A stretch of DNA of 64,000 nt from Bolinopsis microptera. Lineage: Eukaryota; Ctenophora; Tentaculata; Lobata; Bolinopsidae. The first letter of the stretch is position 1, and each line of letters opens with the position of its first letter. Positions 2-35,998 of this stretch are shown piece by piece. The stretch is from assembly GCF_026151205.1 (NCBI RefSeq), contig NC_087072.1, positions 2,375,375-2,439,374 of the forward strand, written 5' to 3'. Under the pieces are notes generated by a model that was not told the DNA's origin, did no database searches, and saw only the letters and a program-made list of their open reading frames with translations. The position numbers and the translations under genes were made by a program.

Positions 2-3000
2 CCCCGAGTTGTCAATATTTCATCTATCGTGGTGAACATAGCGAAGGGTTGTCAAGATCTTCTTCCAACGTGCAAATCCCAACCTACTGTATATGGTGAT
101 GCCGTCTTTGTCCAATATAATATCGATGGAATACCCAAAAAGGAATTGAAGGGTCGGTGTATTGGACCCCTATCAAGTTCAGTTCTGATGGACGTGCGAT
201 ATTCTACAACAGTTGTGACACTGATTTTCACGCCACGAAGTCCCGGAAAGTTCGTTTTCGACCAAATAACATACGGTTCAACGCCGATGGATTCTTTCAG
301 TGTTGAAGTTGTATTTGTGGGTGATCGTCTATCAGAAGCTAAAATGGAGATACGTGAGCAATCGCCAACGAAATCAATCACAGCTCCTCTATCTTCTGAA
401 GATATTGTGCTGTTGGATGAGCCGATGTCAGTCGATGATGAAGCCCAAGCATCCGAAGCAGTTCCTTTACCAAAATATCTACATCCACCTACTGTTGAAG
501 GGAAAAATGTTTTGGTAACCTTTGGGACTGAGGGCACTAAAAGCGAGAAGATCAAAGTATTGTGTATTGGCCCTGACTCTGAAGCTCAGCGTGTTGATGT
601 GATGTTCACAGAAGAAAAGATGCACTTGATTATAACACCTAAGAAGACAGGGAGCTACACTTTCAGCACGATGGAGTGGGGTTCCTGTCCAATGTCGCCT
701 TTCACTCTAAACATCAGACTCATCGGCAGACGTGTCACCTGCCACATGGCGGAACCACCCCAACTTTCCAGCGAAAAGCCACCAAGTATTGTATTTGCTG
801 ACATCAGCTCAACGAAGATAACCTCATCAACAAGTTTGAGTATTCCAGTCCAAGGAACCAGAGAAGAATTAGTGCACATCGAAGTGACCTGCAAACATCT
901 AGACCTAGACAGAGATGTGCCGGTAAAAGTAGATAGACATCATTACACAAAACTTGTTGCCTCGTTCACTCCTGGTAATGGAGGTAATTATGTCCTCAAC
1001 TTTACGCTCAACGGTAAACATGTTCCTCAAAGTCCAATGTCATTTTTCGTGGAAGGCGAACTGTATGACGATCAGTGTGCTTTTAAATCCCTGCCGAATG
1101 GACAGGTTTTCCGTTTACATAATGGTCAGATGGAGTTTGAAGTAGAGATCAAGGACCCTCAAACAGACTTTGAGCTGAAAGCAGAGGTGAAACTGCCCTC
1201 GGGAGTTTTGGCCCCTCTAAAAACCTTATCTACGCAGAATGATAATGCATTTCTATTCACCTTAAAACCAACTGAAACAGGGCGCCACGAATTCAGCGTG
1301 TGGAACAACGACAAACAGATTGAAGACAGCCCTAAGGTTGTAAATGTAACATCTATGATGTTACGACCTGTGCACCAACTGCCCCTACCAACGTACGAAG
1401 GACCCCCATTAGTAGATGGAAAAACTGTAATCCTATCATTTGACATAGCTGGAGTTCCTAAAGAAGAAATACTTGTGTCATGTCTTGACCCAGATTCTGA
1501 GTCACTGCCAGTTCAAGCAACGTACTCTGACTCAAAACTTCATCTTTTGTTAGCTCCCTCAAAGCCAGGGACGTATCTTATTGAGAAAATCATGTGGGGT
1601 CCCTGCCAACTTCCTTCACTTCGCATGGATGTTCGATTTGTAAAGGATCGTCTCGAAAAGATAGTCGTTGAGCCTGTTGATGATCCGAAAGCAATGATGG
1701 CTGGATTATCTGCACCTGGAATACCTCGTGGAGTCATACAGGATTTTGAAAGCGAAAGGTCTCAACAGCTCCCTAGGTACAGTGGACCACCACTAGTGAA
1801 AGGAGGAAGTGTGGCTGTTGTTTTTGACATTGCTGAAATTCCAAAGGAAAATATGAAAGCTGTATGCTTGGACCCCGACTCCAATTCTTGTCCTGTTTCA
1901 GTACATTATGTGGAAGATACGGTTTGTCTAAAAATAAAGCCTAGAGTATCCGGCCTATTTCATTTGCTGTTACATGGGGCCAGTATCCAATGCGTTCATT
2001 TTATTTGAATGTCAGATTCGTTGGGGATAAGCTGTCTTGCTTGCTGACTGTATCTTCACCAGAGGAACCCGAAGAAACAACCATACGATTCCCTAACTTA
2101 AGTAAAGAAAGGATATCTTCAAACCAAATCCTTCAACTGCCTATCCAAGGATCCGAAGAAGAATTGGAGAACCTTATCGTAACGTGCCATCACATTGATC
2201 TAGATAGAGAAGTTCCTGTTGTTGTCGACAGATCAAATCCAGCTATTCTTCTTGCAACTGTATCTCCATCTAATGGCGGGAACTATACATTGAACTTTTT
2301 GCTAGAAGATAAGCATGTAGATCAGAGTCCGATGAGCTTCTTTGTTGAAGGTGAGATCTATGATGACCAGTGTGTCTTCAAACCACAACCTAATGGACAA
2401 GTTTTCAACCTTAACGGCGATTTTGTTGAGTTTGAAGTAGAAAACTTATTCACTGGCAGAGATGTTGAGTTGAAATCGAAAGCTAAATTGCCATCCGAGA
2501 CAACAGTTGTCCTACGATCCTCCAAACTTTCTAAAGATAACTACTTGTTCAAATATTGCTCAACTGAGCTGGGGAAACATGAATTCAGCGTCTGGAACAA
2601 AGGACGCCCTATTGCAGACAGTCCCAGGGTCGTTGAAATTACGTCAGTGTCGAACGAAGAACCACTTTTACCAAGATACAAAGGTCCCCCAATAGTCGAG
2701 GGTAATTCTGTGATCATTAGGTTAGATGTGGAGGGAATCCCTAAACAAGATCTTTCTACAAAGTGTCAAGGTCCTGAATTGGAAACAATCCCAATTAACA
2801 TCAGAGTCTCTGCTTCAGTGGTAGACATGGTTTTGACACCACAAAAACCGGGCAGATACACTTTCCATGATGTACTCTATGGATCAGACCCCATGTCCCA
2901 GTTCAGTTTGGAAGTCGAATTTATTGATAATCGTTTGGCAAGTCCAGAAATGGAGATAGATGAGCGATCCCTTGAACCTAGTTCACACGAACAACTATCT

Positions 3001-6000
3001 GAGGAAACTGAAGAAACAACCGTAATGTTCCCCAACTTAAGTAAAGAAAAGATATATTCAAACCAAATCCTTCAACTGCCTATCCAAGGATCCGAAGACG
3101 AATTGGCGAACCTTATCGTAACGTGCCATCACATTGATCTAGATAGAGAAGTTCCTGTTGTTGTCGACAGATCAAATCCAGCTATTCTTCTTGTAACTGT
3201 ATCTCCATCTAATGGCGGGAACTATACATTGAACTTTTTGCTGGAAGATAAGCATGTAGATCAGAGTCCGATGAGCTTCTTTGTTGAAGGTGAGATCTAT
3301 GATGACCAGTGTGTCTTCAAACCACAACCTAATGGACAAGTTTTCAACCTAAATGGCGATTTTGTTGAGTTTGAAGTAGAAAACTTATTCACTGGCAGAA
3401 ATGTTGAGTTGAAATCGAAAGCTAAATTGCCATCCGAGACAACTGTAGTCCTTCGATCCTCCAAACTTTCTGAAGATAACTACTTGTTCAAATATTGCTC
3501 AACTGAGTTGGGGAAACATGAATTCAGCGTCAGGAACAAAGGACGCCCTATCGCAGACAGTCCCAGGGTCGTTGAAATTACGTCAGTGTCGAACGAAGAA
3601 CCACTTTTACCAAGATACAAAGGTCCCCCAATAGTCGAGGGTAATTCTGTGATCATTCGGTTAGATGTGGAGGGAATCCCTAAACAAGATCTTTCTACAA
3701 AGTGTCAAGGCCCTGAATTGGAAGCAATCCCAATTAACATCAGAGCTTCTGCTTCAGTGGTAGACATGGTTTTGACACCACAAAAACCGGGCAGGTATAC
3801 TTTCCATGATGTACTGTATGGATCAGACCCCATGTCCCAGTTCAGTTTGGAAGTCGAATTTATTGATAATCGTTTGGCAAGTCCAGAAATGGAGATAGAT
3901 GAGCGATCCCTTGAACCTGTATCAGACGAACAACTCTCTGAGGAAACTGAAGAAACAACCGTAATGTTCCCCAACTTAAGTAAAGAAAGGTTATCTTCAA
4001 ACCAAATTCTTCAACTGCCTATCGTAGGATCCGAAGACGAATTGGCGAACCTTACCGTAACGTGCCATCACATTGATCTAGATAGAGAAGTTCCTGTTGT
4101 TGTCGACAGATCAAATCCAACTATGTTTCTTGCAACTGTATCTCCATCTAATGGCGGGAACTATACATTGAACTTTTTGCTGGAAGATAAGCATGTAGAT
4201 CAGAGTCCGATGAGCTTCTTTGTTGAAGGTGAGATCTATGATGACCAGTGTGTCTTCAAACCACAACCTAATGGACAAGTTTTCAACCTTAACGGCGATT
4301 TTGTTGAGTTTGAAGTAGAAAACTTATTCACTGGCAGAGATGTTGAGTTGAAATCGAAAGCTAAACTGCCATCCGAGACAACTGTAGTCCTACGATCCTC
4401 CAAACTTTCTAAAGATAACTACTTGTTCAAATATTGCTCAACTGAGCTGGGGAAACATGAATTCAGCGTCTGGAACAAAGGACGCCCTATTGCAGACAGT
4501 CCCAGGGTCGTTGAAATTACGTCAGTGTCGAACGAAGAACCACTTTTACCAAGATACAAAGGTCCCCCAATAGTCGAGGGTAATTCTGTGATCATTAGGT
4601 TAGATGTGGAGGGAATCCCTAAACAAGATCTTTCTACAAAGTGTCAAGGTCCTGAATTGGAAGCAATCCCAATTAACATCAGAGTCTCTGCTTCAGTGGT
4701 AGACATGATTTTGACACCACAAAAACCGGGCAGATACACTTTCCATGATGTACTGTATGGATCAGACCCCATGTCCCAGTTCAGTTTGGAAGTCGAATTT
4801 ATTGATAATCGTTTGGCAAGTCCAGAAATGGAGATAGATGAGCGATCCCTTGGACCTCTATCAGACGAACAACTATCTGAGGAAACTGAAGAAACAACCG
4901 TAATGTTCCCTAACTTAAGAAAAGAAAGGATATCTTCACACCAAATTCTTCAACTGCCTATCCAAGGATCCGAAGACGAATTGGCGAACCTTATCGTAAC
5001 GTGCCATCACATTGATCTAGATAGAGAAGTTCCTGTTGTTGTCGACAGATCAAATCCAACTATTCTTCTTGCAACTGTATCTCCATCTAATGGCGGGAAC
5101 TATACATTGAACTTCTTGCTGGAAGATAAGCATGTATATCAGAGTCCGATGAGCTTCTTTGTTGAAGGCGAAATCTATGATGACCAGTGTGTCTTCAAAC
5201 CACAACCTAATGGACAAGTTTTCAACCTAAATGGCGATTTTGTTGAGTTTGAAGTAGAAAACTTATTCACTGGCAGAAATGTTGAGTTGAAATCGAAAGC
5301 TAAATTGCCATCCGAGACAACTGTAGTCCTTCGATCCTCCAAACTTTCTGAAGATAACTACTTGTTCAAATATTGCTCAACTGAACTTGGGAAACATGAA
5401 TTCAGCGTCTGGAACAAAGGACGCCCTATTGCAGACAGCCCCAGGGTCGTTGAAATTACGTCAGTGTCGAACGAAGAACCACTTTTACCAAGATACAAAG
5501 GTCCCCCAATAGTCGAGGGTAATTCTGTGATCATTCGGTTAGATGTGGAGGGAATCCCTAAACAAGATCTTTCTACAAAGTGTCAAGGCCCTGAATTGGA
5601 AACAATCCCAATTAACATCAGAGTCTCTGCTTCAGTGGTAGACATGGTTTTGACAACACAAAAACCGGGCAGATACACTTTCCATGATGTACTGTATGGA
5701 TCAGACCCCATGTCCCAGTTCAGTTTGGATGTCGAATTTATTGATAATCGTTTGGCAAGTCCAGAAATGGAGATAGATGAGCGATCCCTTGAACCTAGTT
5801 CACACGAACAACCAACTAAACATCTACCTAAGTACAGAGGACCTCCTACGGTGCAAGGAAGAACAGTGTTCATCACGTTTAGTACAGAAGACATCCCTGA
5901 AGATAAACTGACCGGGTCCTGTCTTGGGCCTGATTGTCACCTTCGAAAACTGGACATCAGTTCTTCAAACGATTCCGTTATAATTGGTCTCATGCCAGAC

Positions 6001-7430
6001 AAGGAAGGGAAGTACACTTTTGTCAACTTTACATGGGGTGAATTGCCGATGGCCTCATTCATCCTGGACGTGAAGTTTATCAGAAAGCAACTTTCGTGCT
6101 CCATGCCAAAGGTACCAAATGAGCCGGACAGCAAGTGTACAACAATACAAATACCTGATATAAGCAAAACTGTGATGACATCTGAAGAAATAGTGAACTT
6201 ACCTGTGCAAGGTACTGAAGAAGAATTGAGATTCTTAGTGATATATTGCACCCATCTAGAATTTGACCGAACGGTTCCTGTCTCAATTAAAAGATCTGAT
6301 CCTACGAAACTCCTTGCTTCTCTTAAATTGGGATCGAGTGGAACGTATGTCCTGAGCTTCCTTTTGAATGACAATCATATCACCCAGAGTCCAATGACGT
6401 TGGTTGTAGAAGACGAAGTATTGGATGGCCAATTTCGTTTTCAGCCTCATTCAAACGGACACATTTTCAAACTCAGTAAAGGTGTGATCGAATTTAAGGT
6501 TAAAACCCTAAGTCGACATCGTCGATCTTCAATATTGAAGATCGAAGATGTCGACTTGAAAGCAGAAGCTCAGCTGGTTTCTGGAAAGAATATTCCCTTG
6601 AAGGCCTTTCCAGCCAAGTTACCAAACCAGTACCATTTCTCACTACGTCCGACCGAAATTGGGCGCCATGTAATTCGGATATGGAATAAGGGGAGTCAGC
6701 TGATAGATAGCCCTAAAATAATCGACATTACTGACTCAATGGTGGAGATAGCAGCTTAGAATCGCCGCTTCCTACCCTTAAAGGAGCTCCACTTGTCCTG
6801 TATGGAGATACGGTATTCATAACGTATAACATTGAAGGAATCCCGAAAAAAGATATTTCAGTTTGCTGCAAGGACCCAGACGCGCTCGTCGAACCTATTG
6901 ATGCTAAGTATTCAGATTCAGAGTTAAGCTTAGTTTTTGCTCCAAAGAAGGCTGGCACTTACCAATTTGATAATATCTTATGGAACTCGGAACCACTACC
7001 TTCCTTCCTGATAGACGTCTCTTTTGTTGGAGGTCGCGTAGAGTGCTGCTTTGATCAGACTGATGCAAATAGTGAACCTTTGATGGCAGGTCTGGTACAG
7101 AAGGGTAAACCATTAGGTTTGTTCGAACCGTCACCTTCTAAGGATAGAGAGCCTATAACACTACCAAAATACAGGAGTCCACCAACTGTCTTAGGGCAAG
7201 CGGTATTTATTCAATTTGATGTCGAAACAACACCTCAGGAAGAGATGCAAGTAAAATGTGTTGGACCAGATAATATCGTCTATCCAGTAAATCAAAAACT
7301 GACAGAATCTGGAATCAGCCTTTTCTTGGTACCCGACAAACCAGGGAACTACGAACTTAACGAAATGAGCTGGCGAAATGTTTCTCTACTGATAGTTATT
7401 GGCCTGAAAGTCAGTTTCAAGGATAGTGAT
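2..7430 (+). CDS. Giant exon part 1: tandem filamin-type Ig-like modules
   Basis: Open from nt 2; the first residues match the end of a C-type module, so this is a 5'-truncated exon. I read about 24 modules of 90-100 residues in three types. Type A has the pattern LPxYxGPPxVxG ... CxGPD ... PxKxGxYxF ... WGxxPM and ends in VxFIxxxL. Type B has LPIxGxEEEL ... THxxLDRxVPV ... GGNYxLNFxLxxKHVxQSPMSFFVEGE. Type C has YDDQCxFKPxPNGQVF ... GxHEFSVWNKGxxIxDSP. The G-x-Y ... SP ending resembles filamin/ABP280 repeats, which are actin-cross-linker Ig folds; this assignment is by motif only. The frame slips by one base near 1963 and 6741, and the module pattern continues across both. These modules are unusual for a spectraplakin. 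Confidence 0.8.
2071..5826 (+). repeat. Four tandem 939-bp units (Ig-like B-C-A triplets)
   Basis: The same DNA string recurs at 2071, 3010, 3949 and 4888, a constant spacing of 939 bp (313 codons). Each unit encodes one B, one C and one A module. By eye the copies differ at only a few positions per hundred, including silent ones, so the array is recently amplified or homogenised by gene conversion. Flanking triplets (780-1660 and 5815-7050) are clearly diverged. Confidence 0.95.
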
Positions 7431-10400
7431 ATATCCGACTGCATAGCTGAGTTGAAGCCAACAGAGCCTGAAAAAGCAACTGCGGGTAAGAGACCTCTCC
7501 GTGATGGCAAATACGATCCAGCCAAACGGTCGAAGAGTGAGACACTTGACGAAGATGTTGATAAACATTCCGCAGCTAGAGTGTTTGCTACAGATATAGG
7601 AATGGAAGTTGAATCTCTCGCCTCGTCAGATGAAGAAATCAGTACTGAGATAGGGGATTCAAACATAACATTCAGCCGCCAGGAATCAACACACGCCAAG
7701 AGATCAGTCAATGATCCTGAAGAAGATCAGTCCAAGCGGGTTAAAAGTAGCAAAGATTTTGAGGAAGTCGATAAAAGTGACGATGAGTTGAGCGCAGATG
7801 AAGCAGACTTAGAGCGTAAAGTAAGAAGTGGGATACATCCCGATGTTCTTGGTGCCAAACCTGTCAAACCTGCCAAACCTGTCAAACCTGCCAAACCTGC
7901 CATACCCGCCAAACCCGCCAAATCTGATGGACGTCCTCTGATGGCAGGTTTAACGTTTGACAAGGGACCGGATGGTATTTTGCCATCTGAGTCAGTGCAA
8001 CCTTTGGAGATGAAAGATCAACCTTTGGTGCCGAGATCAGTACCTGAACTGTCATATCAAGATAAATCAATAGAAGAAGAAGGCATTACCGTGGATATCG
8101 CGGAGATCATGAGTGTTGAAAGTGGGTTCGTCCCTCAGCCAAGCCAGAAGTTCGGACAAAGAACTGACCCACAAGAACCTAAAGTAGACGATTTCCGTAA
8201 AGTTCCTAGTAGGACAGATCTTGATGATAAAAGTGACGATGAGTTGAGCGATGATAAAGCGGAAATAATACGTAAAGTGAGAAGTGGAATACATCCTGAT
8301 GGAGTTATTTGTGATTCGGAGTCAGTTGATTCGTCAGATGAAGACTTACCACTTGCGGAAGAAGATGTTGAAGCAAAGAGTATTCCATACGGACAAAAAA
8401 CTGACCCACAAGAACCTAAAGTAGATGATTTCCGTAAAGTTCCTAGTAGGACAGATCGTGATGATACAAGTGACGATGAGTTGAGCGATGATGAAACGGA
8501 TATAATACGTAAAGTGAGAAGTGGAATACATCCTGATGTTATTGGTGATACCAAACCTGATGGACGTCCTCTGATGGCTGGTGACGAAAAAGAACTTGTC
8601 TGTGATTCTGAACCAGTTGATTCGTCAGATGAAGACTTACCACTTGCGGAAGAAGATGGTGAAGCAAAGAGTATTCCATACGGACAAAGAACTGACTCAC
8701 AAAAACCTGAAATATCTTGCCAACATGAATCAATAGAAGAAGAAGATATTACAGTGGATATCGCGGAGATCAAGAGTGTTGAAAGTGGGTTCGTCCCTCA
8801 GCCAAGCCAGAAGTTCGGACGAAGAACTGACCCACAAGAACCTAAAGTAGACGATTTCCGTAAGGTTCCTACTAGGACAGATCGTGATGATACGATTGAC
8901 GATGAGTTGAGCGCAGATGAAGCAGACTTAGAGCGTAAAGTAAGAAGTGGATACATCCCGATGTTCTTGGTGCCAAACCTGCCAAACCTGTCAAACCCGC
9001 CAAACCTGCCATACCCGCCAAACCTGCCAAACCTGATGGACGTTCTCTGATGGCAGGTTTAACGTTTGACAAGGGACCGGATGGTATTTTGCCATCTGAG
9101 TCAGTGCAACCTTTGGAGATGAAAGATCAACCTTTGGTGCCGAGATCAGTACCTGAACTGTCATATCAACATGAATCAATAGAGGAAGAAGGCATTACCG
9201 TGGATATCGCAGAGATCAAGAGTGTTGAAAGTGGATTCGTCCCTCAGCCAAGCCAGAAGTTCGGACAAATAACTGACCCACAAGAACCTAAAGTAGACGA
9301 TTTCCGTAAAGTTCCTAGTAGGACAGATCGTGATGATAAAAGTGACGATGAATTGAGCACCGACGAAACGGATATAATACGTAAAGTGAGAAGTGGGATG
9401 CATCCTGATGGAGTTATTTGTGATTCGGAGTCAGTTGATTCGTCAGATGAAGACTTACCACTTGCGGAAGAAGACGTTGAAGTAAAGAGTATTCCATACG
9501 GTCAAAGAACTGATCCACAAGAACCTAAAGTAGACGATTTCCGCAAAGTTCCTACTAGGAAGGATCGTGATGATAAAAGTGACGATGAATTGAGCACCGA
9601 CGAAACGGATATAATACGGAAAGTAAGAAGTGGGATAAATCCTGATGTTATTGGTGATACCAAACCTGATGGACGTCCTCTGATGGCTGGTGACGAAAAA
9701 GAACTTGTCTGTGATTCTGAATCAGTTGATTCGTCAGATGAAGATTTACCACTTGCGGAAGAAGATGTTGAAGCAAAGAGTATCCCATACGGACAAAGAA
9801 CTTACTCACAAAAACCTGAAATGTCTTGCCAAGATGAATCAATAGAAGAAGAAGATATTACAGTGGATATCGCGGAGATCAAGAGTGTTGAAAGTGGGTT
9901 CGTCCCTCAGCCAAGCCAGAAGTTCGGACAAATAACTGACTCACAAGAACCTAAAGTAGACGATTTCCGTAAAGTTCCTAGTAGGACAGATCGTGATGAT
10001 ACGAGTGACGATGAGTTGAGTGATGATAAAGCGGAAATAATACGTAAAGTGAGAAGTGGAATACATCCTGATGGAGTTATTTGTGATTCGGAGTCAGTTG
10101 ATTCGTCAGATAAAGATTTACCACTTGCGGAAGAAGATGTTGAAGCAAAGAGTATTCCATACGGACAAAGAACTGACTCACAAGAACCTAAAGTAGACGA
10201 TTTGCGCAAAGTTCCTACTAGGAAGGATCGTGATGATAAAAGTGACGATGAATTGAGCACCGACGAAACGGATATAATACGTAAAGTAAGAAGTGGAATA
10301 CATCCTGATGTTATTGGTGATACCAAACCTGATGGACGTCCTTTGATGGCTGGTGACGAAAAAGAACTTGTCTGTGATTCTGAATCAGTTGATTCGTCAG

Positions 10401-11400
10401 ATGAAGATTTACCACTTGCGGAAGAAGATGTTGAAGCAAAAAGTATTCCATACGGACAAAGAACTGACTCACAAAATCCTGAAATGTCTTGCCAAGATGA
10501 ATCAATAGAAGAAGAAGATATTACAGTGGATATCGCGGAGATCAAGAGTGTTGAAAGTGGGTTCGTCCCTCAGCCAAGCCAGAAGTATGGACGAAGAACT
10601 GACCCACAAGAACCTAAAGTAGACGATTTCCGCAAAGTTCCTAGTAGGACAGATCGTGATGATACCAGTGACGATGAATGGAGCGATGATAAAGCGGAAA
10701 TAATACGGAAAGTTAGAAGTGGAATACATCCTGATGGAGTTATTTGTGATTCGGAGTCAGTTGATTCGTCAGATACAGATTTACCACTTGCGGAAGAAGA
10801 TGTTGAAGCAAAGAGTATTCCATACGGACAAAGAACTGACTCACAAGAACCTAAAGTAGACGATTTCCGCAAAGTTCCTAGTAGGACAGATCGTGATGAT
10901 ACAAGTGACGATGAGTTGAGCGATGATGAAGCGGAAATAATACGGAAAGTAAGAAGTGGGATACATCCTGACGATATTGGTGATACCAAACCTGATGGAT
11001 GTCCTCTGATGGCTGGGTTAACGTTTAACAAGGGACCAGAAGGTATTCTCCCATCTGTGTCAGTACAACCTTTGGAGACAGAAAGTGAGCCTGCATCCTA
11101 CGTAAGACCTTCTGGGTTGGCTGTGAATAAATATGAGGACGAAAGTGGTCGTCCAGAAGACGACAGTGGTCGTCCAGAAGACCAAGCTTTGATATCTAGG
11201 CTTGTATTTACACAGCAACCAGACGAAATGCCAGATTATGTTGCTAGTTCAGCTCTTTTCAAAAATTCAAAATCAGAACCCGATATGTCATACCAAGAGG
11301 AACCAATGGAAGAAGAAAGCATAACCCTAGATATCAGCGAGATTAAAAGCGTCGAAAGTGGGTCTGTCAACCAAAGGTTCGATGTAAATGTAGCCAAAGA
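7431..11400 (+). CDS. Giant exon part 2: repetitive acidic Ser/Asp/Glu linker
   Basis: A low-complexity, probably disordered segment made of interleaved repeats. One block carries VDDFRKVPSRTDRDD, SDDELS, IIRKVRSG and IHPD and recurs about ten times between 7750 and 10960. Another carries ESIEEEDITVDIAEIKSVES followed by GFVPQPSQKFG (near 8050, 8720, 9170, 9830, 10495, and degenerate at 11290 and 14400). A third carries CDSESVDSSDEDLPLAEED. A PLMAGL motif opens several blocks, and a short KPAKP run sits at 7855-7920 and 8960-9030. The S/D/E runs look like casein-kinase-2 acceptor sites, which is inference. The frame slips by one base near 8950, where the sister copy near 7829 has one more G. 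No folded domain is recognised. Confidence 0.75.
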
Positions 11401-13720: not shown

Positions 13721-14639
13721 AAAGTCAAGAAACCACAAGTGGTTTTACCTGTATTAGATAGAGTTGATTTGTCAGATGATGCCAGAAGTCTTGATGCCGA
13801 CGAAGAGCCTGGAGAGATAGAATTCGATTCGGCATCGGATTTGGAGAGTGTTAACACCGATATCAATATCCAAGTACTATCGAAGCAACCTTTAAAAAGC
13901 TTCTACGACAAGAAGATACCTGTGGCAGCTGGTTTTCCTTTGCTCTTATCTGCTGAACAAGAACCAGGTCCTAGTGCTCGAAGAGATACTGATCCTTTAA
14001 CTTTTGAAAGATTAAGTGATTCACTCGATTGGGATTCTGAAGGTGATCTCACTCAGTTAGGGTCACCAGTGAAAGCTAACATCAGTGAGAGTGCTCTAGG
14101 AATGGAATTTCCGGATGAAACGTCATTTGAAAGTGGAGAAATGCCTTTCATCGATAGTGGTGTCTCCGCATCTGAATTCAGTGGTTGGGCACCACCAGGA
14201 ACCCAGAGGCCCTCTGATGAACAACGTTATCCTAAAACAACATCCACCTCATCGTATGAAGATGAGTATCCCAGGCTAATTAAACCTGATGGACATCCAC
14301 TGATGGCCGGTTTAACATTTAACAAAGGACCGGAGGGTGTTTCGCATTCTCAGCCAGTGAAACCTTTGTTATCAAGAACAGAACCCGAACTTTTATACCA
14401 AGAGGAATCAATAGAAGAAGAAGGCATTATCGTGGATATTGGTGAGATTAAGAGTGTAAAAAGTGGGTTCGTCCCAATTCCCAAGATAACTAAGGCTAAG
14501 GAATTAGCAGGTCACAGAAAGGAGTCAGTCGACTCGACAGATGAAGATTTGCCACTTGTCGAAGAAGATGGTGAAGCAGGGAGTGTTCCAAAACGACGAA
14601 AGACTGGCAAACAAGACCCAGAAACTAAAGTTGTTCCAG
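13721..14639 (+). CDS. Giant exon part 4: acidic spacer before the Gly/Asp-turn repeats
   Basis: A Ser/Asp/Glu/Pro-rich segment without a recognisable fold. It repeats signatures of the first acidic linker: PLMAGLTFNKGPEG near 14300, an ESIEEEG block near 14405, and a SVDSTDEDLPLVEEDG block near 14530. The same linker vocabulary therefore brackets both the Ig-like and the Gly/Asp-turn repeat blocks. Confidence 0.65.
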
Positions 14640-17600
14640 GAGTATGTCATATCCACCAAGACGGTACTCTAGTCGGACCTGATAACCAACTCATAGTCAA
14701 CGATAAGTTTCAGCCAATGAAAGTGAAACTAGATTTTAAACAGCGTCCACTCTAGATAAACGTGGCCGCTTACTTGATTGTCTTGAGGGGTCTCCTCTTT
14801 CTGGCCCTGATGGAAGACCAATCCAGTTAGGAACAGGCGCTTATGGTCCTCGTGTTGGTCCAGATGGGAGTATTTTTAGGTCCAATGGGACAATGGTTCG
14901 AGATGTGAACGAGAAGCCTGCTAAAGCAGGTATCGATAAGAAGGGAAATGTGCTTATTGATAAGGACGGATACCTTAAAGATCAAGAGGGCCAACTCTTG
15001 CTTGACGTAGAAGAAAGCCCTGTGCCCTGTAGTGAAAATCCTTTCGCAGGATATCAGGGCAGGTTATACAAGGCAGATGGAAGTCCACTCGTTACCTTTA
15101 CAAAGGACATTCCTCTTATGGCAGCACTTGACAAAGACAATGTCCCGAAGACCAACAAACTTGGTCAGTTTGTCGGTAGAAAAGATAAGCCTATAAAAGA
15201 TCGTGAGGGTAGTCCAATCACCTCAGGTAGCCTTCCTTATGTTACTGAGAATGGTGTGGTCATGATGCCAAATGGTACACCATTACTAGATGAGGCCAAA
15301 CGACCGAAAGTGGCGGGTATCGACAAACACGGAAATCCTACTGTTGATTACAATAAATTTGTTCTTGACACTAATAATCAGATTATCCTAGGAAAGGACG
15401 GTCAGCCTATCTTAATTTCTAATCAATTCAATTCACTGAACGAAGGCAAACCGCTCATGGCCGGTTTAAGTTGTGGTGTCGGGCCAACAGGATTGATGAG
15501 GTGGAATCTTCTACAAGGGGTAACAAAGAAGACAGTGAACCACTTATGGGCAAGCTCATGGCTGCATTGAAAGGGGACCACCACTTGAAGCGCAGTGCTG
15601 GAAAAGAGGGAACTCCTCCGACGAAAAAGCATGGTATATCTAAAAAAGATGAATCGAAACCTGATGTCACCCTGATTACTTCTTTGACGACCTGTACAGA
15701 AGAGTTTGCCGAATGGGATACCCAATATGATTTCCACGTCTCAGAAGAGGAATCGAAGGAAACATACAGCTCATTTCAACCACATCAACAGGACGATGAG
15801 CTGCCAGTCATTCCAGGAGTAACTCACATAAAACGTGACGGCACTTTATTGGGATCCGACTATGAACCTATTTTGAGTAGAAGATTCAAACCCCTTACTG
15901 CGAAGCTAGATGATGTTGGTGGGCTTCCTGTTACTGATAACGCTAACTGTGTTATCGGGGAGAATGGTTCTCCATTAGAAGGCCCTGAAGGTAGGCCTGT
16001 GAAATTAGGACAAGGTACCTATGGTCCTCGTATAAGTACAGATAGAACAATCTACCAACCTAATGGTAAACCCATTTGTGATGTTAAGGGCGAGTTAATC
16101 AAAGCAGGCTTTCACGATGACCATCATGTGATAGTTGATCACCTTGGACAGCTTCGTGATCAAGATGGTCAGCTTCTGCTAGACTGCGACGGAAACCCTG
16201 TGCCTTGCAGCGAAAATGCCTTTGCTGGCCATCGTGGAAAGCTTTACAAGGCAGATGGAATCCCTGTAACTGCGCTAGGAAGTGAAGAACCCCTCTTTGC
16301 GGTTCTTGATAAGGATAACCTCCCGAAAACTGACAAGTTTGGTCATTTTGTCGGGCGAAGAGGTAAGCCACTGAAGGATAGCGAAGGTAATATGATAACC
16401 GCTGGTAACATGCCTTACGTTTCTAGAAATGGAGTGGTCCTGATGCCTAATGGTACCCCGTTGTTGGATGAGCAAAAACAACCAAAGGTGGCTAGAATGG
16501 ATGAGGATGGAAATCCGGCTGTCGATTCAAAGAAATGTGTTCTTGACCCAAATAACTTAAACGTCCTCGGAAAAGATGATGAGCCTGTAATGATTACGAA
16601 TCAGTTTACTTCATTGTCAGACGTAAGACCTCTTATGGCAGGTATGGGACCTTCAGTTGCACCAAATGGTTTAGAAGAAAGTGTCTTCGCTAAAGAGATT
16701 CCCATTGAAGCCATATTCAGCAGTCCAAAACTGGAGCCCAAACAACCTATCAAAAGAGTGGTGTCTAAATCTCTTGGAATGAGACCAAAGAAATTCATAA
16801 GACCTGGGGTGATCCAACTACGATCTGATGGCACTTTAAAAGGTCGAGATAACAAACTCATTTTAGGATACGATAAAAACCCGATAAAAGCAGTGATGGA
16901 CAAGAATGGATGGCCGAAGACAGACTCTAATGATAACATGATTGATGCCCTAGGGCTTAAATTGAAAGGGCCTGATGGCCTACCAATTAGGCTTGGCCAA
17001 GGGTCATATGGTCCTCGAGTGGGTCCTAAAGGGGTTGTTTACAATTCAAATGGGAGACCTATTGACGACGTGAAGAATAAGCCTCTCAGGGTAGGAATTT
17101 CCCCAGATGATAAAGTGTTAGTTGGTAGACTCGGAGATCTCAAGGGACCTGACAAAAAGCCTCTTATCGATAACAAATTGGAAAGAGTATTCGTCAGTTC
17201 CAATCCCTATGTAGGTTTTAACGGTGGTCTTTACGAACCTGATGGTGCTCCTTTGTTACATCCGACCACGGATTCTCAGCTCTTTGTGCAGCTTAACAAA
17301 GACAGACGCCCAATGACAGATAAGAATGGACATTTTATTGGACCTGACAAAAAGCCTTTGAAGGACAGCAGTGATAACAATCTAGTTCTTGGCATGGGAC
17401 CAATTGTTTACAAAGGCATGATAGTGCTTCCTATTGGACGACCATTGACAGATTCCAAGTCTAAAGTTATCTCCGCTGGAGTAAACAAGAAAGGTTTGCC
17501 AATGGTAGACAGTGACAACTGTATCTTGAACCATCGGGGCAGACAAATCAAAGGTAAAGATGGAAAACCTATCTTAGTTTACCCTCACGAAACATTACCA

Positions 17601-20600
17601 ACAGTTGACTTCTTTGACAGTGTACTGTCAGATTCGATGGATTCAGATGACGAGGATCATACATCACCAATCACCAGCTTTAGGTACAGATTTGAATGTT
17701 CATCAGGTTCGTCCGAGGAAGATATTGAAAATGTGTATAAACTGAAGTCAGTGAGAACACAAATCGAAGCTCAACCCACTGAACCAACAATTCGACCGAA
17801 AAAGGTCCTGCCAAAACCTGTCAGTCGTCCTAAGTCAAGTAAATTCATTAGACCTGGTGTAATACGAATTTTGCCTAATGGCACAATTAAAGGAAGGGAT
17901 AATAAACTTCTCATCAATGATCAGAAGGAGCCTCTACGAGTAGCCATAGGGAGTGACGGAAAGCCTATGACTGACATCCACAATTACATTGTGAATGGAA
18001 ATGGGCGTCAGGTAAAAGGACCAGATGGTATTTTGATAAGATTAGGCCAAGGTTATTATGGTCCTCGAGTTGGTCCGGGAGGAGTGATTTACAATCCAGA
18101 TGGATCCTTGGTCAAAGATGTAAAGAACAAGGTGTTGAAAGCAGGGTTCTCACCGGACGGCAGAGTCTTGGTAGGCAGGTATGGTGATTTGAAAGGACCT
18201 GACAGAAAACCACTTATAGATCGTAAGTTGGAGAGGGTGTTTGTCAGCTGTAACCCTTATGTTGGTGTCGGTGGTATCCTCTACAATCCAGATGGAACAC
18301 CTTGTCTCCAACCCGACTCAAAGAAACCATTGGTCGTGCTCCTTAACAAAAATAAACGTCCGCATACCGGTAAAGATGGGAGTTTAACGGGGCTAGATAG
18401 GAAACCTCTTCAAGACAAAAACGAAAATAACCTTGTACAAGGGACCGGACCCATCGTTTATAAAGGTTTGGTGATGCTGCCAGTGGGCAGGCCTTTGACA
18501 GGACCGAACTCAAAAGTGTTGAAAGCTGGAATCACCAGAGATGGTCACCCTATGGTGGACGCAGACAATTGCCTCCTAGACCCAAAGCGGAGAAATGTAA
18601 TCGGAAAAGATGGCCAACGTGTGTTAGTGTACCCGCATGAAGTACTGCCAGAAATCGGCTATTATGACAGCGTTCTGTCCGATTCACTTGATTCAGACGA
18701 TCCTGAGGAAACTACATTGCCCCTCGAAGACTTTCTTTACGATTTTGAATGCCTCTCAGATTCGTCTGATGGTCAGGATACAACAGTAAAATTCGGCAAA
18801 TCTATGAAAATATCTGCTAGCATTGACAAACGCCCGCAACATAGTCTAAGTAAGAGGTTTATCAGATGCGGTGTCGTTCGTATTTGCTCAGATGGAATTG
18901 TAAAAGGTCGCAACAGTAAACCACTTCTTAGCATAAGAAATGAACCAATAAAATGTTCTCTGAAAGGTGTGGTGCCATTTGTTGATTCAGAAAAATATCT
19001 TTTAGACAAAGGAGGCAAATATCTGTATGGACCTGATGGAAAACCTATCAAACTCGGTCAGGGATCATTTGGCCCTAGAATTGGTCCCTCGGGGACAATC
19101 TACGGTTCCAATGGAGAACCTCTGAAAAGTAAACACGGTAAAATACTCACAGCAGACTTACTTCCAGATGGAAGAGCTTCAGTGGATCGACATGGGCGAA
19201 TAAGAGGAACTGATAACAAAATTATTCTCGATGATGAATCTAAAACAGTGTATGCCAGTGCGAATTCATATGTTGGTTTTGGTGGATCTGTATACAATCC
19301 CGACGGTACTCGTCACTTAGACAAACAAGATGAACCTCTGATTGCTTTGTTAGATATGAACAAGTGCCCGAGAACTGACGAAGATGAACATTTGATGGGA
19401 CTAAATGGACGTCCTTTAAAGGATAAGGATGGCAAAAATCTTGTCAACGGGCCAGGACCTATTGCTTTCAAAGGAATAATAATGTTGCCAATTGGTAGAC
19501 CCTTGACTGACTCAAAATTCAAAGTCCTGACAGTCGGAGTCACCGATGATGACTGTCCAATAGTAAATGATGAAAACTGTGCTTTGAGTCCAAAAGGTAG
19601 TCTTATGAGAGGCAGAGACGGTGCACCAATTTTGTTGCATCCTCATGAAAATCAATCCGAAGTTGAACCATTCGATAGAGCACAATCAGAGGTCTTTGAT
19701 ACAGACGATGAAAACAATCTCGATGATAAAATAGAACCAATATTCTACGATTCCGAAGAAATGTCGGATCTTGAAAACGTAATGATTGATTCCATCAAAT
19801 TAAAGGACTTAAAAAAGCCTTTGGTTGTCGGAGATGGATTGACACCGAAGCTCATGGCAGGCTTGGGACCTTTCGCACCACCTGGTGAGCCAGGCAAAAC
19901 CAAAGACCAAGATCCTGGAAAGGTCGCCCCCATCAGTCCAACATCATATGGTGGAATACCACCAGCACCTTTCAAACCAAACGACAGAAAACATTCGCCT
20001 AGTGCATCAAAATCTGATAAACCAAAACGCAGAAAACAGTTCATCAGACCTGGCGTCATTCGTGTTTGTCCTGATGGCACCTTGAAGGGACGTGACAACA
20101 AACCTATACTGCACTTAAATAGGAATCCAATTAAATGTCTTATTGTTAACGGCCAACCAAAGACAGATTCCAAAATGTGTCTTGTTGACAAATATGGCCA
20201 TCGTTTAAAGGGACCTGATAAGCTACCGATAAGGTTAGGTCAAGGATCTCATGGTCCCAGAGTAGGTCCTAATGGAATCATTTACAAACCAGATGGAAGT
20301 CCCGTGGTAATTGGCAAGAAGAAGCCCTTGACGGCAGGCTTTCTACCAGATGGTAGAGTAAGGGTGAACAGGCATGGAGCTATAAAGGGGCCTGATAGGA
20401 AGAAACTGCTCAATAGAAAATCAGATCGAGTGTATGTCAGCATGAACCCATACGTTGGTGTGGGTGGTGCTGTCTACAAGCCCGACGGGTCGCCTTATCT
20501 TCACCCCGGTACAAAGGAGCCTCTGTATGCCCAGCTGGATACCAACAAACGCCCCAAAACCGATGACGATGGAGCCTTGATCGGACCAAACGGTCGTCCC

Positions 20601-23600
20601 TTGAAAGACAAGGATGGAATGAATCTCATCAACGGTACCGGGCCTCTGGTCTACAAGGGAATGGTGATTCTGCCTATTGGAAGGCCTTTGACCGATCCTA
20701 AATCCAAAGTGCTGAAAGCTGGAGTCACTGACGAGGGCTTGCCCATGGTCGACGGTGAAAACTGTGTACTAGATCCAAAGAGAAAGACCGTAAAAGGCAA
20801 GGATGGTAAACCCGTCCTTTTGTATCCCAACGAAAATCTATCAGAAGTTGAACCGTACAACAAGTCCAACACCGATCAGTTCTCTGATCTGTCGGAGGAT
20901 GAACTAGATGAGGTTGAAGCAACCACCACCGAACCGGTGTACTACGATTCCGAAGATATGTCGGATCTTGAAGACGTTATAGTTGAATTAGTCGAATTGA
21001 AGGACTTGGAAGAAGAGCCTTCGGTTGTCACAGACGGATCGACACCAAAGCTCATGGCAGCACCTTTCAAACCCGATGACAGAAAACTTTTGTATACTGC
21101 AGCAAGAGCTGATCAACCAAAACGTAGCAAGCGGTTCATAAGAGCTGGTGTAGTTCGTATTTGCTCAGATGGAATTGTAAAAGGTCGCAACAGTAAACCA
21201 CTTCTTAGCATAAGAAATGAACCAATAAAATGTTCTCTGAAAGGTGTGGTGCCATTTGTTGATTCAGAAAAATATCTTTTAGACAAAGGAGGCAAATATC
21301 TGTATGGACCTGATGGAAAACCTATCAAACTCGGTCAGGGATCATTTGGCCCTAGAATTGGTCCCTCGGGGACAATCTACGGTTCCAATGGAGAACCTCT
21401 GAAAAGTAAACACGGTAAAATACTCACAGCAGACTTACTTCCAGATGGTAGAGCTTCAGTAGATCGACATGGGCGAATAAGAGGAACTGATAACAAAATT
21501 ATTTTCGATGATGAATCTAAAACAGTGTATGCCAGTGCGAATTCATATGTTGGTTTTGGTGGATCTGTATACAATCCCGACGGTACTCGTCTCGTAGACA
21601 AACGAGATGAACCTCTGATTGCTTTGTTAGATATGAACAAGTGCCCGAGAACTGACGAAGATGGACATTTGATGAGACTAAATGGACGTCCTTTAAAGGA
21701 TAAGGATGGCAACAATCTTGTCAACGGGCCAGGACCTATTGCTTTCAAAGGAATAATAATGTTACCAATTGGTAGACCCTTGACTGACTCAAAATTCAAA
21801 GTCCTGACAGTCGGAGTCACCGATGATGACTGTCCAATAGTAAATGATGAAAACTGTGCTTTGAGTCCAAAAGGTAGTCTTATTAGAGGCAGAGACGGTG
21901 AACCAATTCTGTTGCATCCTCATGAAAATCAATCAGAAGTTGAACCATTCGATAGAGCACAGTCAGAAGTCTTTGATACTGACGAAGACAAAGGTAACGA
22001 TGAAAATATAGAACCAATATTCTACGATTCCGAAGATATGTCGGATATTGAAGATATTATGGTGGAGTCAGTTGAATTGAACGACTTGGAAGGAGAGTCT
22101 TTGGTTGTCAGGGAAACTTCGACAGCGAAGCTCATGACAGGCTTGGAACCTGGCTTGGAACAGCCTTTGGTTGTCGGGGATGAATCGACACTGAAGCTCA
22201 TGGCAGGCTTGGGACCTTTCGCACCACCTGGTGAGCCAGGCAAACCCAAAGACCAAGATCCTGGAAAGGTCGCCCCCATCAGTCCAACATCATATGGTGG
22301 AGAACCATCAGCACCTTTCAAACCTGATGACAGAAAAGAGTCGCCTAGTGCAGCAACAGCTGATAAACCTTTCGCACCACCTGGTCAGCCAGGCAAAACC
22401 AAAGACCAAGATCCTAGAGCACCAAGAGCTGATAAACCAAAACGCAGGAAGCAGTTCATCAGACCTGGCGTCATTCGTGTTTGTCCTGATGGCACCTTGA
22501 AGGGACGTGACAACAAACCTATACTGGACGTCGACAGAAAACCAATCAGGTGTCCTATTGTTAAGGGCCAGCCGAAAACAGATTCCAAAATGTGTCTTGT
22601 TGACAAAGATGGCCAACGTTTGAAGGGACCTGATAAGCTGCCGATAAAGCTAGGTCAAGGATCTCATGGTCCCAGAGTAGGTCCTAGTGGAACCATCTAC
22701 AGTCCAAATGGAAGTCCCGTGGTACTTGGCAAGAAGAAGCCTTTGACGGCAGGCTTTGTACCAGATGGTAGAGTAAGGGTGAACAGGCATGGAGCTATAA
22801 AGGGGCCTGATAGGAAGAAACTGCTCGATAGAAAATCAGATCGAGTGTATGTCAGCATGAACCCATACGTTGGTGTGGGTGGTGCTGTCTACAAGCCCGA
22901 CGGGTCGCCTTATCTTCACCCCGGTACAAAGGAGCCTCTGTATGCCCAGCTGGATACCAACAAACGCCCCAAAACCGATGACGATGGAGCCTTGATCGGA
23001 CCAAACGGTCGTCCCTTGAAAGACAAGGATGGCATGAATCTCATCAACGGTACCGGGCCTCTGGTCTACAAGGGAATGGTGATTCTGCCTATTGGAAGGC
23101 CTTTGACCGATCCTAAATCCAAAGTGCTGAAAGCTGGAGTCACTGACGAGGGCTTGCCCATGGTCGACGGTGAAAACTGTGTACTAGATCCAAAGAGAAA
23201 GACCGTAAAAGGCAAGGATGGTAAACCCGTCCTGTTGTATCCCAACGAAAATCTATCAGAAGTTGAACCGTACAACAAGTCCAACACCGATCAGTTCTCT
23301 GATCTGTCGGAGGATGAACTAGATGAGGTTGAAGCAACCACCACCGAACCGGTGTACTACGATTCCGAAGATATGTCGGATCTTGAAGATGTTATGGTTG
23401 AGTCAGTCGAATTGAAGGACTTGGAAGAAGAGCCTTTGGTTGTCGGGGAAGATTCGACACCAAAGCTAATGGCAGGCTTGGAACCTGGCTTGGACAGCCT
23501 TTGGTTGTCGGGGATGAATCGACACCGAAGCTCATGGCAGGCTTGGAACCTGGCTTGGAACAGCCTTTGGTTGTCGGGGATGAATCGACACCGAAGCTCA

Positions 23601-24030
23601 TGGCAGGCTTGGGACCTTTCGCACCACCTGGTGAGCCAGGCAAACCCAAAGACCAAGATCCTGGAAAGGTCGCCCCCATCAGTCCAACATCATATGGTGG
23701 AGAACCATCAGCACCTTTCAAACCTGATGACAGAAAAGAGTCGCCTAGTGCAGCAACAGCTGATAAACCTTTCGCACCACCTGGTCAGCCAGGCAAAACC
23801 AAAGACCAAGATCCTAGAGCACCAAGAGCTGATAAACCAAAACGCAGGAAGCAGTTCATCAGACCTGGCGTCATTCGTGTTTGTCCTGATGGCACCTTGA
23901 AGGGACGTGACAACAAACCTATACTGGACGTCGACAGAAAACCAATCAGGTGTCCTATTGTTAAGGGCCAGCCGAAAACAGATTCCAAAATGTGTCTTGT
24001 TGACAAAGATGGCCAACGTTTGAAGGGACC
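14640..24030 (+). CDS. Giant exon part 5: about nine Gly/Asp-turn modules of about 265 residues, unrecognised family
   Basis: Modules begin near 14640, 15815, 16795, 17845, 18855, 20038, 21130, 22455 and 23850. Each opens with FIRPGVIRxCxDGTLKGRDN and continues through short sub-repeats of about 20-25 residues with a turn such as GPDGKPL, NGRPLxD or KGKDGKPV. Constant landmarks are LGQGSxGPRVGPxGxIY, NPYVGxGGxxYxPDG, KGMxxLPIGRPLTD, and a closing acidic tail with YYDSEDMSD. The periodic xDGxP/xGPDx turns suggest a beta-rich repeat fold. I do not recognise the family; plakin (plectin) repeats and RHS/YD repeats were considered and do not match. The frame slips by one base near 14747, 15494 and 23494. 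At the last, the sister copy near 22158 has one more A. Confidence 0.75.
18853..23240 (+). repeat. Higher-order duplication of an X-Y module pair
   Basis: Two subtypes alternate. X (opening FIRxGVVRICSDGIVKG) lies near 18853 and again near 21127. Y (opening FIRPGVIRVCPDGTLKG) lies near 20038 and again near 22455. X copies are nearly identical in DNA and so are Y copies, so a unit of about 2.3-2.4 kb was duplicated. A further unit of about 1400 bp containing Y and its linker repeats from 22201 to 23601 to about 25009. Confidence 0.9.
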
Positions 24031-26870
24031 TGATAAGCTGCCGATAAAGCTAGGTCAAAGGATCTCATGGTCCCAGAGTAGTCCTAGTGGAACCATCTAC
24101 AGTCCAAATGGAAGTCCCGTGGTACTTGGCAAGAAGAAGCCTTTGACGGCAGGCTTTGTACCAGATGGTAGAGTAAAGGGTGAACAGGCATGGAGCTAAA
24201 AAGGGGCCTGATAGGAAGAAACTGCTCGATAGAAAATCAGATCGAGTGTATGTCAGCATGAACCCATACGTTGGGTGTGGGGTGGTGCTGTCCTACAAGC
24301 CCGACGGGTCGCCTTATCTTCACCCCGGTACAAAGGAGCCTCTGTATGCCCAGCTGGATACCAACAAACGCCCCAAAAACCGATGGACGATGGAGCCTTG
24401 ATCGGACCAAACGGTCGTCCCTTGAAAGACAAGGATGGCATGAATCTCATCAACGGTACCCGGGCCTCTGGTCTACAAGGGAATGGTGATTCTGCCTATT
24501 GGAAGGCCTTTGACCGATCCTAAATCCAAAGTGCTGAAAGCTGGAGTCACTGACGAGGGCTTGCCCATGGTCGACGGTGAAAACTGTGTACTAGATCAAA
24601 GAGAAAGACCTTAAAAGGCAAGGATGGTAAACCCGTCCTGTTGTATCCCAACGAAAATCTATCAGAAGTTGAACCGTACAACAAGTCCAACACCGATCAG
24701 TTCTCTGATCTGTCGGAGGATGAACTAGATGAGGTTGAAGCAACCACCACCGAACCGGTGTACTACGATTCCGAAGATATGTCGGATCTTGAAGATGTTA
24801 TGGTTGAGTCAGTCGAATTGAAGGACTTGGAAGAAGAGCCTTTGGTTGTCGGGAAGATTCGACACCAAAGCTCATGGCAGGCTTGGAACCTGGCTTGGGA
24901 ACAGCCTTTGGTTGTCGGGGATGAATCGACACCGAAGCTCATGGCAGGCTTGGAACCTGGCTTGGAACAGCCTTTGGTTGTCGGGGATGAATCGACACCG
25001 AAGCTCATGGCAGGCTTAGGACCTTTCGCACCACCTGGTGAGCTAGGCAAACCCAAAGACCAAGATCCTGGAAAGGTCGCCCCCATCAGTCCAACATCAT
25101 ATGGTGGAGAACCATCAGCACCTTTCAAACCTGATGACAGAAAAGAGTCGCCTAGTGCAGCAACAGCTGATAAACCTTTCGCACCACCTGGTCAGCCAGG
25201 CAAAACCAAAGACCAAGATCCTAGAGCACCAAGAGCTGATAAACCAAAACGCAGGAAGCAGTTCATCAGACCTGGCGTCATTCGTGTTTGTCCTGATGGC
25301 ACCTTGAAGGGACGTGACAACAAACCTATACTGGACGTCGACAGAAAACCAATCAGGTGTCCTATTGTTAAGGGCCAGCCGAAACAGATTCCAAAATGTG
25401 TCTTGTTGACAAAGATGGCCAAACGTTTGAAGGGACCTGATAAGCTGCCGATAAAGCTAGGTCAAGGATCTCATGGTCCCAGAGTAGGTCCTAGTGGAAC
25501 CATCTACAGTCCAAATGGAAGTCCCGTGGTACTTGGCAAAGAAGAAGCCTTTGACGGCAGGCTTTGTACCAGATGGTAGAGTAAGGGTGAACAGGATGGA
25601 GCTTTTAAAAGGGGCCCCATGGAAGAAATGCTCGATGAAAAAAAAACGATCGAGGTAGTCGCATGAAACCCCACGTTGGTTGGGTGGTGTGTTACAAGCC
25701 CGACGGGTTCCTTATCTTTACCCCGGTAAAAGGGCCCCTTTTTGCCCAGCTTTTTACCAACAAAAAGCCCCCAAAAAAGATGCGAGGGGGCCCTTTTCGG
25801 ACCAAACGGTCGTCCCCTTTAAAAAAAGGTGGCATGAATCCATCAACGGTACCCGGGGCCCCTTTGGTCTACAAGGGATGGGGGGATTCTGCCTTTGGAA
25901 GGCCTTTGACCCCCCCTAAATAAAGTGCTTTTAAAGCTTTGGATATGAGAGGGTTGCCCCGGGGGGAAAAACTGTGTAAAAGATCCAAAGGAAAAAGGGA
26001 AAACAAGGATGGTAAACCGTCCCGTTTTATCCCAAGAAAATTATCGAAGTTGAACCCTTACACCAGAAAAACGATCATTCCTGATCTGTCGGGGGATGAA
26101 ATGTGAGGTTTTGGAAACCACCCCGAAAAATTTTTAACTTTCCGAGATAAGCCCGGGGCTTAAGAGGGTTTTTGGTTTAGCTGAATTTGGAAATTAAAGA
26201 GAGCCTTTGGGTTGTCGGGGAAATTCACACGGTCATGTCGGTTAACCCGGCTTGGGAAAACCTTTGGGTCCAAAAGCGCCCGAAGTAAGGCACCCCTTTT
26301 TTTTGGTTGCCCTTTTGTCGGGGATAATCCAAACCAGAGGCTTGGGGCCCTTTGCCCCCACTGGTTACGGCAAACCCCCAAACCAGTCTGGAAAGGTCCC
26401 CCTAGTAAATATATTGGAACCTCGCCTTTTTGATGACGAAGAGTCGGGCCAACACTGATAAAACCTTTCGCACCACCTGGTAGCACAAAACAAAGCCAAC
26501 CCTTTTGGCACCAAAAGGTGGGAAAAAAAAAACGCGGACAGCAAATTTTTCCAAACCGGCCCCCCCATCGTTTTGTCCCAGGGCCCTTGGAAAAGGGGGC
26601 TAAAAAAAACCCTTAGACGTCGAAGAAAAAAATCAGGTGTCCTATTGTTAAAGGGCCACCGAAAACGATTCCAAAATTTTTTGTTGCAAGTGGCCTTTGA
26701 AGGGGCTGATAAATGGATAAAGCAGGCAAAATCTCATTCCCCAGGGGTCCCTTTCCCCTTAAGCCCCAATGGGGTCCCCCTGGGGACTGGCAGAAGAAAC
26801 CCTTTTGAGGCAGGCCCTTTTTTTTTCCCGAAGGTAGAGAGGTTTGGGTGGGCTTTAACACTTATGTCAG
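24031..26870 (+). pseudogene. Broken copies of the Gly/Asp-turn module; probable low-quality assembly
   Basis: Up to about 25600 this is near-identical to the 22201-23600 unit except for isolated one-base insertions and deletions (for example near 24058, 24088, 24176, 24275, 24376, 24462, 24597 and 25383). From 25600 it still aligns in order with the module but is full of expanded G, C, A and T runs and lost bases, and similarity fades toward 26870. This gradient resembles the unreliable end of a sequencing read built into an assembly, rather than mutation. The reading frame, the copy number and the 3' border of the giant exon cannot be read here. Real decay is possible but less likely. Confidence 0.7.
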
Positions 26871-27296: not shown

Positions 27297-27490
27297 ATGG
27301 CGGGCTCCCCAACGAGTCTGGACTCCGACCGGAAACTAGATAATATTCCGCTGCAGTTTCTAGTTGGCAATCTGGCCCCACACGAGTGTTCCCCCGATCG
27401 TGCTGTATGGATAACCTACGCCTTCTGGAGAGCTAACAGTGGATTACTTGAGAGCAGGTTCGATTGTTTGTTAACTTCACCGATGCTCTC
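27297..27490 (+). CDS. Candidate alternative first exon (phase-matched to the spectrin rod)
   Basis: An ATG at 27297 opens 64 codons plus two bases and runs into a perfect GTAAGT donor at 27491. The next spectrin exon (28355) needs exactly two bases to complete its first codon, so the join is in frame. The peptide (MAGSPTSLDSDRKL...) resembles nothing I know. In this reading an internal promoter would make an isoform lacking the giant exon. It could also be an internal exon extended upstream in the same frame from 27135. Confidence 0.45.
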
Positions 27491-28354: not shown

Positions 28355-28505
28355 TAACGAGGAGAGGTACAAGTCGTACGAGAGACTCCAGGAGGAGCTC
28401 GATCTGTTCCTGGGTTGGTGTAACGACACCAAGAACAAGCTCGACAACCCTCCCCAGGTCCTCATACAGCTCAAGGAAGTTTCCAGACTCAAGGCTCAGC
28501 GTCAG
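28355..28505 (+). CDS. Spectrin-rod exon 1
   Basis: The acceptor CCCTCAG precedes it and the donor GTTAGA follows. The 50 codons include NEERYKSYERLQEELDLFLG followed by W, the helix-A pattern of a spectrin repeat with its conserved Trp. It starts with one base of a split codon and ends in phase 0. With the next exon (55 codons) it makes 105 residues, the length of one spectrin repeat. Confidence 0.85.
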
Positions 28506-35827: not shown

Positions 35828-35998
35828 GCAAAGAATGCGTCTCAAGACTTGCAGGAGACGATGGACAGGGTTGAGAAGGTTGTGTACTGGTACAATTGTC
35901 TACAGCAGTACCTAAAGAACAGTAGGAAGAGGCTGGAGATATTGGATCCTGTTGCTACTGATGTGGTGGAGGTCGCCAAGCAGCTCAAACATTGCAAG
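35828..35998 (+). CDS. Spectrin-rod exon 3
   Basis: Acceptor CCCCGCAG, donor GTAGGG, 57 codons, phase 0-0. Contains a helix-A-like segment VEKVVYWYNCLQQYLKNSRK. With the following exon it makes about 108 residues, one spectrin repeat. Confidence 0.85.

Follow-up and report, generated by a model that had tools for sequence, protein, structure and literature searches.

Results

A giant coding stretch between the two halves of a probable spectraplakin

The locus analyzed here is a stretch of 64,000 nucleotides of the ctenophore Bolinopsis microptera (contig NC_087072.1, here C1; C1:2375375-2439374), which we refer to as the window. Negative coordinates denote bases upstream of its start, where a further 100 kb were read. 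We consider it probable that the locus represents one spectraplakin gene, in which a giant in-frame cassette of filamin-type immunoglobulin-like (Ig) modules and Gly/Asp-turn modules (G modules) lies between upstream spectrin-like exons and the spectrin rod. The domain order would be CH-CH, spectrin/plakin-like repeats, giant cassette, spectrin rod, EF hands, GAS2 and a basic tail, placing the cassette between spectrin-like repeats about where bilaterian spectraplakins have plakin repeats. Exon models upstream and downstream of the giant stretch were obtained with a simple splice-aware scorer, and genome-wide searches covered 264,652,675 bases. The features of the window are as follows.

1-25600, + strand: giant coding stretch in six overlapping frames, then pieces; its start lies upstream of the window, near -3047
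65-7424, + strand: 23 filamin-type Ig modules (profiles from the window's own modules, Pfam, PDB profile search, fold)
7425-11440, + strand: acidic/disordered repeat linker region
11441-13702, + strand: 7 more filamin-type Ig modules (own-module profiles, Pfam)
14630-23246, + strand: 8 G modules of about 264 amino acids each, one split by a frame change
22092-26855, + strand: tandem array of near-identical units, each about 1.4 kb long, with noise setting in at about 25.6 kb (assembly artefact)
27297-27490, + strand: candidate alternative first exon (ATG, GTAAGT donor, phase 2)
28355-28505, + strand: first rod exon, with a phase-2 acceptor
35828-41806, + strand: spectrin-repeat rod exons (Pfam Spectrin 1.6e-17, 1.3e-18)
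44023-51865, + strand: large low-complexity exon (to 48426) and long coiled-coil-like exon (49523-51865)
52417-55223, + strand: further spectrin repeats (Pfam Spectrin 3.2e-19)
55728-55923, + strand: EF-hand pair (Pfam 9.7e-13; PDB, MACF1 EF 1.6e-18)
56235-58142, + strand: GAS2 in two exons, 56235-56347 and 58026-58142 (Pfam 8.8e-28; MACF1 GAR 9.3e-26; also matched in the genome search)
59862-62885, + strand: basic Ser/Arg-rich tail exons

Filamin-type Ig modules and G modules fill the giant exon

Coding sequence on the + strand fills positions 2 to about 25.5 kb. A preliminary description of the window had reported an intronless exon of more than 24 kb; indeed no intron was seen within this range, but the sequence occupies six frames rather than one. 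The stop-to-stop frames (2-2008, 1945-6759, 6735-9050, 8939-14755, 14740-15570 and 15423-23900) leave no gap between them, and shorter open pieces continue after 23,900 up to about 25.6 kb. At each of the five frame changes before 23.9 kb the DNA is continuous and the sequence resumes in the next frame. The changes look as single-base errors would and may be such errors; real frameshifts are also possible. The ratio of nonsynonymous to synonymous substitution rates (dN/dS) between repeat copies was 0.20-0.53 in eight of nine comparisons, indicating purifying selection on the repeats, so that a pseudogene reading of the giant stretch is not favored. The ninth comparison gave 4.35 over 60 bases and is too short for use.

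Merging overlapping matches to three profiles built from the window's own modules yielded 30 filamin-type Ig modules, distributed as 6, 15, 2 and 7 over successive frames. About 31 had been proposed. Of the seven frames scanned, three exceeded the Pfam Filamin cut-off (4.6e-15, 2.9e-33 and 9e-15), and a PDB profile search with the Ig modules retrieved filamin-A at 1.4e-9. The predicted structure of an Ig unit matched filamin Ig domains with a Foldseek probability of 1.00, the model itself being of middling quality (predicted local distance difference test 73, predicted template modeling score 0.38). Four three-module units of 939 bp at 2062-5812 are about 96% alike. The acidic linkers described earlier are likewise present, as a region of repeats. 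A fourth own-module profile found eight G modules, including the split one, plus two damaged copies, in agreement with the earlier figure of about ten Gly/Asp-turn modules. The G module gave a confident predicted model, for which no solved structural relative was found here. The plectin-repeat model PF00681 had no match in the seven frames scanned. The cassette would combine an extended array of G modules with acidic linkers and no fewer than 30 Ig modules of filamin type.

The CH-CH half lies upstream on the same strand

CH-CH exons lie on the + strand at -63.5 to -62.5 kb, 63 kb upstream and on the same strand as the giant exon. The pair scored 3.2e-25 against Pfam CH, and its best PDB relative was MACF1 (7.1e-49), followed by plectin (4.6e-47) and filamin-B (1.8e-24). 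An independent genome-wide Pfam CH search returned matches at the same place, C1:2311823-2312826. The scorer placed further + strand exons at -59.3 to -55.7 kb and at -28.9 to -16.8 kb, and the start of the giant exon near -3047. The CH pair can be regarded as firm, the single upstream exons as provisional. Pfam Spectrin rose above its cut-off (36.7 bits) when the upstream exons and the start of the rod were combined. Retroelement-like open frames occur in the upstream introns, at about -92 to -88 kb and near -44 kb.

The last exon on the CH side (-55691) and the first of ten chosen exons that follow it (-28910) are both in phase 0. The ten exons end in phase 2. Joined to -3047, they stay open into the giant exon without a stop; joined straight to the rod exon at 28355, they are again in frame and without a stop. 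On its readable sides the giant exon therefore behaves as an optional in-frame cassette. The join that skips it would set one spectrin-like helix directly on the first helix of the rod.

The downstream half ends in EF hands, GAS2 and a basic tail

The rod model (28,355-62,885) comprises 38 exons and 4,823 codons without a stop and scored 1201, compared to 38 on the reverse strand. Its spectrin, EF-hand and GAS2 parts are all closest to MACF1; for the EF hands and the GAS2 domain, the best PDB relatives are the EF and GAR domains of that protein. The second GAS2 exon was missed by the scorer and added by hand; it joins at phase 2, and its splice sites and phase fit. The intron separating the two GAS2 exons carries a 19-bp satellite in 44 copies (57093-57928). 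Other GAS2 matches in the genome lie at C1:20570803, C1:16009935-16012443 and C2:19985884-19986321, the one at 16.0 Mb near a CH match (C1:15995110).

Within the rod, a 4.4-kb low-complexity exon (44023-48426) contains a 114-bp tandem repeat and is followed by a coiled-coil-like exon of 2.3 kb, both between spectrin repeats. To our knowledge, such exons are unusual within the rod of a spectraplakin.

Ahead of the rod, the candidate exon at 27297-27490 is unique in the genome, and its codon score exceeds those of 99% of 2,000 sampled intron segments. Under a forced start, the scorer picked an ATG at 28311 and not this exon.

A misassembled array hides the 3' end of the giant exon

The units starting at 22,092, 23,492 and 24,892 are near-identical, and the sequence from about 25.6 to 26.86 kb is a damaged copy of the preceding 1.4-kb unit. 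In the bins 25600-26199 we counted 513 matches, 44 mismatches, 43 extra and 84 missing bases relative to that unit (bin 26200 was excluded for end effects), and homopolymer runs jump from about 25.6 kb onwards. Homology breaks off inside a module near 26,855, beyond which the sequence is clean and unique in the genome. The previously suggested exon end at 26,870 is hence not a real one, and because the noisy array is cut inside a module, neither the 3' end of the giant exon nor its splice to the rod can be read.

A genome search with one G module returned 71 matches, located at this locus, on C8 and on the unplaced contig C56 (40,983 bp), which carries the G-module unit near both ends. Nine units at 392-12,424 of C56, spaced by 1,401 bases, are 100% identical over 275 residues and sit within an open frame of 4,582 codons; noisier matches follow at 29.5-40.9 kb. 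Between about 16.6 and 29.5 kb the G-module and DNA searches listed no protein match and just two short DNA matches. We infer that C56 is array throughout, and it may be the missing stretch or another haplotype. G units on this unplaced contig mean that the array is longer than C1 shows; were C56 the missing stretch, the exon would measure about 70 kb. The noise would fit an unpolished long-read consensus within a repeat. Tails of Sanger reads were considered as its source, an explanation at odds with a contig of 41 kb whose first part is clean and whose later part is noisy.

A second locus with both module types

Kinship with the cassette was found at C8:5736859-5756241, which carries both filamin-type Ig and G modules. 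We compared the window with fetched sequence from C7, C8:5.73-5.76 Mb and parts of C9 and C12; C5, C8:4.09, C8:14.55 and C9:6.77-6.79 Mb were left out. Among the fetched loci, C8 provided the best partner for the a-b Ig pair of the window (1.2e-12, compared to 7.5e-6 on C7 and 0.016 on C12 and C9) and for the G modules. The G module at 22437 aligns end to end with one C8 segment at 48-49% identity, and G modules align better with that segment than with two others there (33% and 41%). At C8:5,736,859-5,752,407, a long low-complexity G region of GPDGKPL-like turns is set within the array of filamin Ig modules. Unlike in the window gene, no CH match is listed near the C8 locus in the genome-wide CH search, and its G region is a looser repeat. 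We had considered C8 to be the filamin gene, a reading that was dropped given the absence of CH matches nearby, and refer to it as the filamin-Ig/G locus. A CH match followed by Ig matches at C9:2353111 is a better candidate for the classical filamin.

The presence of both module types at C8:5.737-5.756 Mb points to capture within the genome. Capture of the cassette from a filamin-like gene of the same genome, most likely the filamin-Ig/G locus, followed by tandem expansion, would be the simplest reading; the direction of transfer is inferred.

Filamin-type Ig modules are also found in other surroundings. C7:12341908-12360557 contains giant open frames (3,914, 451, 565 and 1,383 codons) with many filamin-type Ig matches, and no G-module match was obtained there in the genome search. 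At C12:5692116-5813507 a cluster of filamin-type Ig modules lies inside long Glu/Pro/Val-rich repeats, with several frames of 550-2,200 codons.

Discussion

One gene or several

The preliminary description had placed actin-cross-linker-like modules in the middle of a spectraplakin. The order and strand of the domains and the frame joins agree with this proposal, which is nevertheless only partly supported because a plakin domain is only suggested and the junction between giant exon and rod is lost in misassembly.

Several observations weigh against a single gene. That one transcript holds all parts is a prediction from frame compatibility, and the 3' end of the giant exon is lost in the misassembled array. 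The ten-exon join excludes three weak scorer pieces ahead of the giant exon (-16899, -10675 and -3179), and other acceptors near -3047 have a similar score and a different phase. The upstream model scored 192 compared to 94 on the opposite strand, with transposon-like and weak pieces included. Taken alone, the upstream exons reached 5e-5 with Pfam Spectrin, below the cut-off. The expected CH-plus-plakin half was recovered as far as the CH pair is concerned, while its plakin domain is only suggested: the Pfam plakin SH3 model had no match in the upstream exons, the plakin region without the SH3-like exon had no PDB match up to E = 1, and inclusion of that exon gave a weak match to the plakin domain of plectin (E = 0.036). 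Finally, a separate start for the rod is possible.

Alternatively, the giant exon might be spliced to the CH/plakin side and end in its own stop and poly(A), in which case no protein would contain both the exon and the rod. Short plakin-type isoforms are a precedent for such an alternative 3' end. No donor or exon end is readable for the giant exon, and an ATG exon with a phase-2 donor lies ahead of the rod, as such an arrangement would have it. The frame, however, fits the cassette on both tested sides; terminal use is still compatible with this fit, and we regard it as unlikely.

Decidedly unlikely, in our judgment, is a separate giant filamin-like gene within a spectraplakin intron, having its own start and stop. 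The filamin-Ig/G locus on C8, with no Pfam CH match nearby, illustrates that these modules need not follow a CH domain in close exon vicinity. Against such a nested gene stand the shared strand, the open frame from the upstream exons into the giant stretch and the absence of any ATG from roughly the first 80 codons of the giant-exon frame. Separate genes or a misjoin of giant exon and rod, suggested by the noise and the ATG exon, are also less likely given the CH half upstream on the same strand. An assembly chimera of unrelated pieces joined near 26,855 would account for the abrupt passage, within a module, from a noisy array to sequence that is clean and unique, and for the array units left on C56. 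We consider it highly improbable because the sequences on either side complement each other as halves of a spectraplakin and share a strand, although the other GAS2 matches at C1:16.01, C1:20.57 and C2:19.99 Mb leave some room for it.

What the cassette might do

If one spectraplakin gene includes the cassette in its mRNA, as we assume, the N-terminus would hold actin and the C-terminus microtubules, and the insert would form a long, extensible, force-bearing spacer between them. Its Ig modules may bind partners in the manner of filamin Igs, and splicing the cassette in or out would set the length of the linker. A bolder version, which we offer tentatively and with some doubt, is that a ctenophore spectraplakin took up a filamin-like rod and multiplied a single unit of 467 residues some thirty times without loss of frame, giving an exon of the order of 70 kb and a titin-sized actin-to-microtubule spring, and that the plakin-repeat site is a recurrent landing place for giant cassettes across animal lineages.

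The usual explanation for the middle cassette of spectraplakins is that it binds intermediate filaments. In an early-branching animal, this slot appears to be filled by modules of another actin cross-linker. If so, it would be the slot as such that evolves, with spacer length or mechanics as a possible older role. The locus moreover provides the G module, a repeat whose predicted model is confident and for which our searches returned no solved relative. It also carries a warning: assemblies collapse such arrays, and here an unplaced contig holds some 41 kb of related array.

Comparison with known spectraplakins and filamins

Searches of the literature for filamin with spectraplakin, plakin repeat, ctenophore or Mnemiopsis, in which subscription journals are thinly covered, returned no title or abstract opening with such an architecture. 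A spectraplakin with a filamin-Ig/G cassette would be a new form of this family, and gene order and reading frame speak for it.

MACF1, dystonin and Shot have a giant plakin-repeat exon between the plakin region and the rod, and plakin repeats in this middle exon are limited to some spectraplakin isoforms and lineages. The gene described here shares with them CH-CH, spectrin rod, EF hands and GAS2 in this order as well as a giant exon before the rod. In contrast to theirs, this exon holds filamin-type Ig and G modules and no Pfam match to plectin repeats in the seven frames. It resembles filamin in its Ig modules, which are filamin-type by Pfam, PDB sequence search and fold. Unlike in filamin, the actin-binding domain is far closer to MACF1 and plectin (7.1e-49 for MACF1, compared to 1.8e-24 for filamin-B), and rod, EF hands and GAS2 follow.

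Truncated relatives of spectraplakins are described in a sponge, a placozoan and Nematostella (PMC9145010). In the part of that source available to us, the sponge and placozoan proteins are reported to be without CH and plakin domains, plectin repeats are reported as absent outside Eumetazoa, with an origin in early Bilateria, and ctenophores are not mentioned (PMC9145010). As far as that part goes, these proteins are, like the one proposed here, early-animal relatives of spectraplakins; unlike the sponge and placozoan proteins, the window gene has a CH-CH pair.

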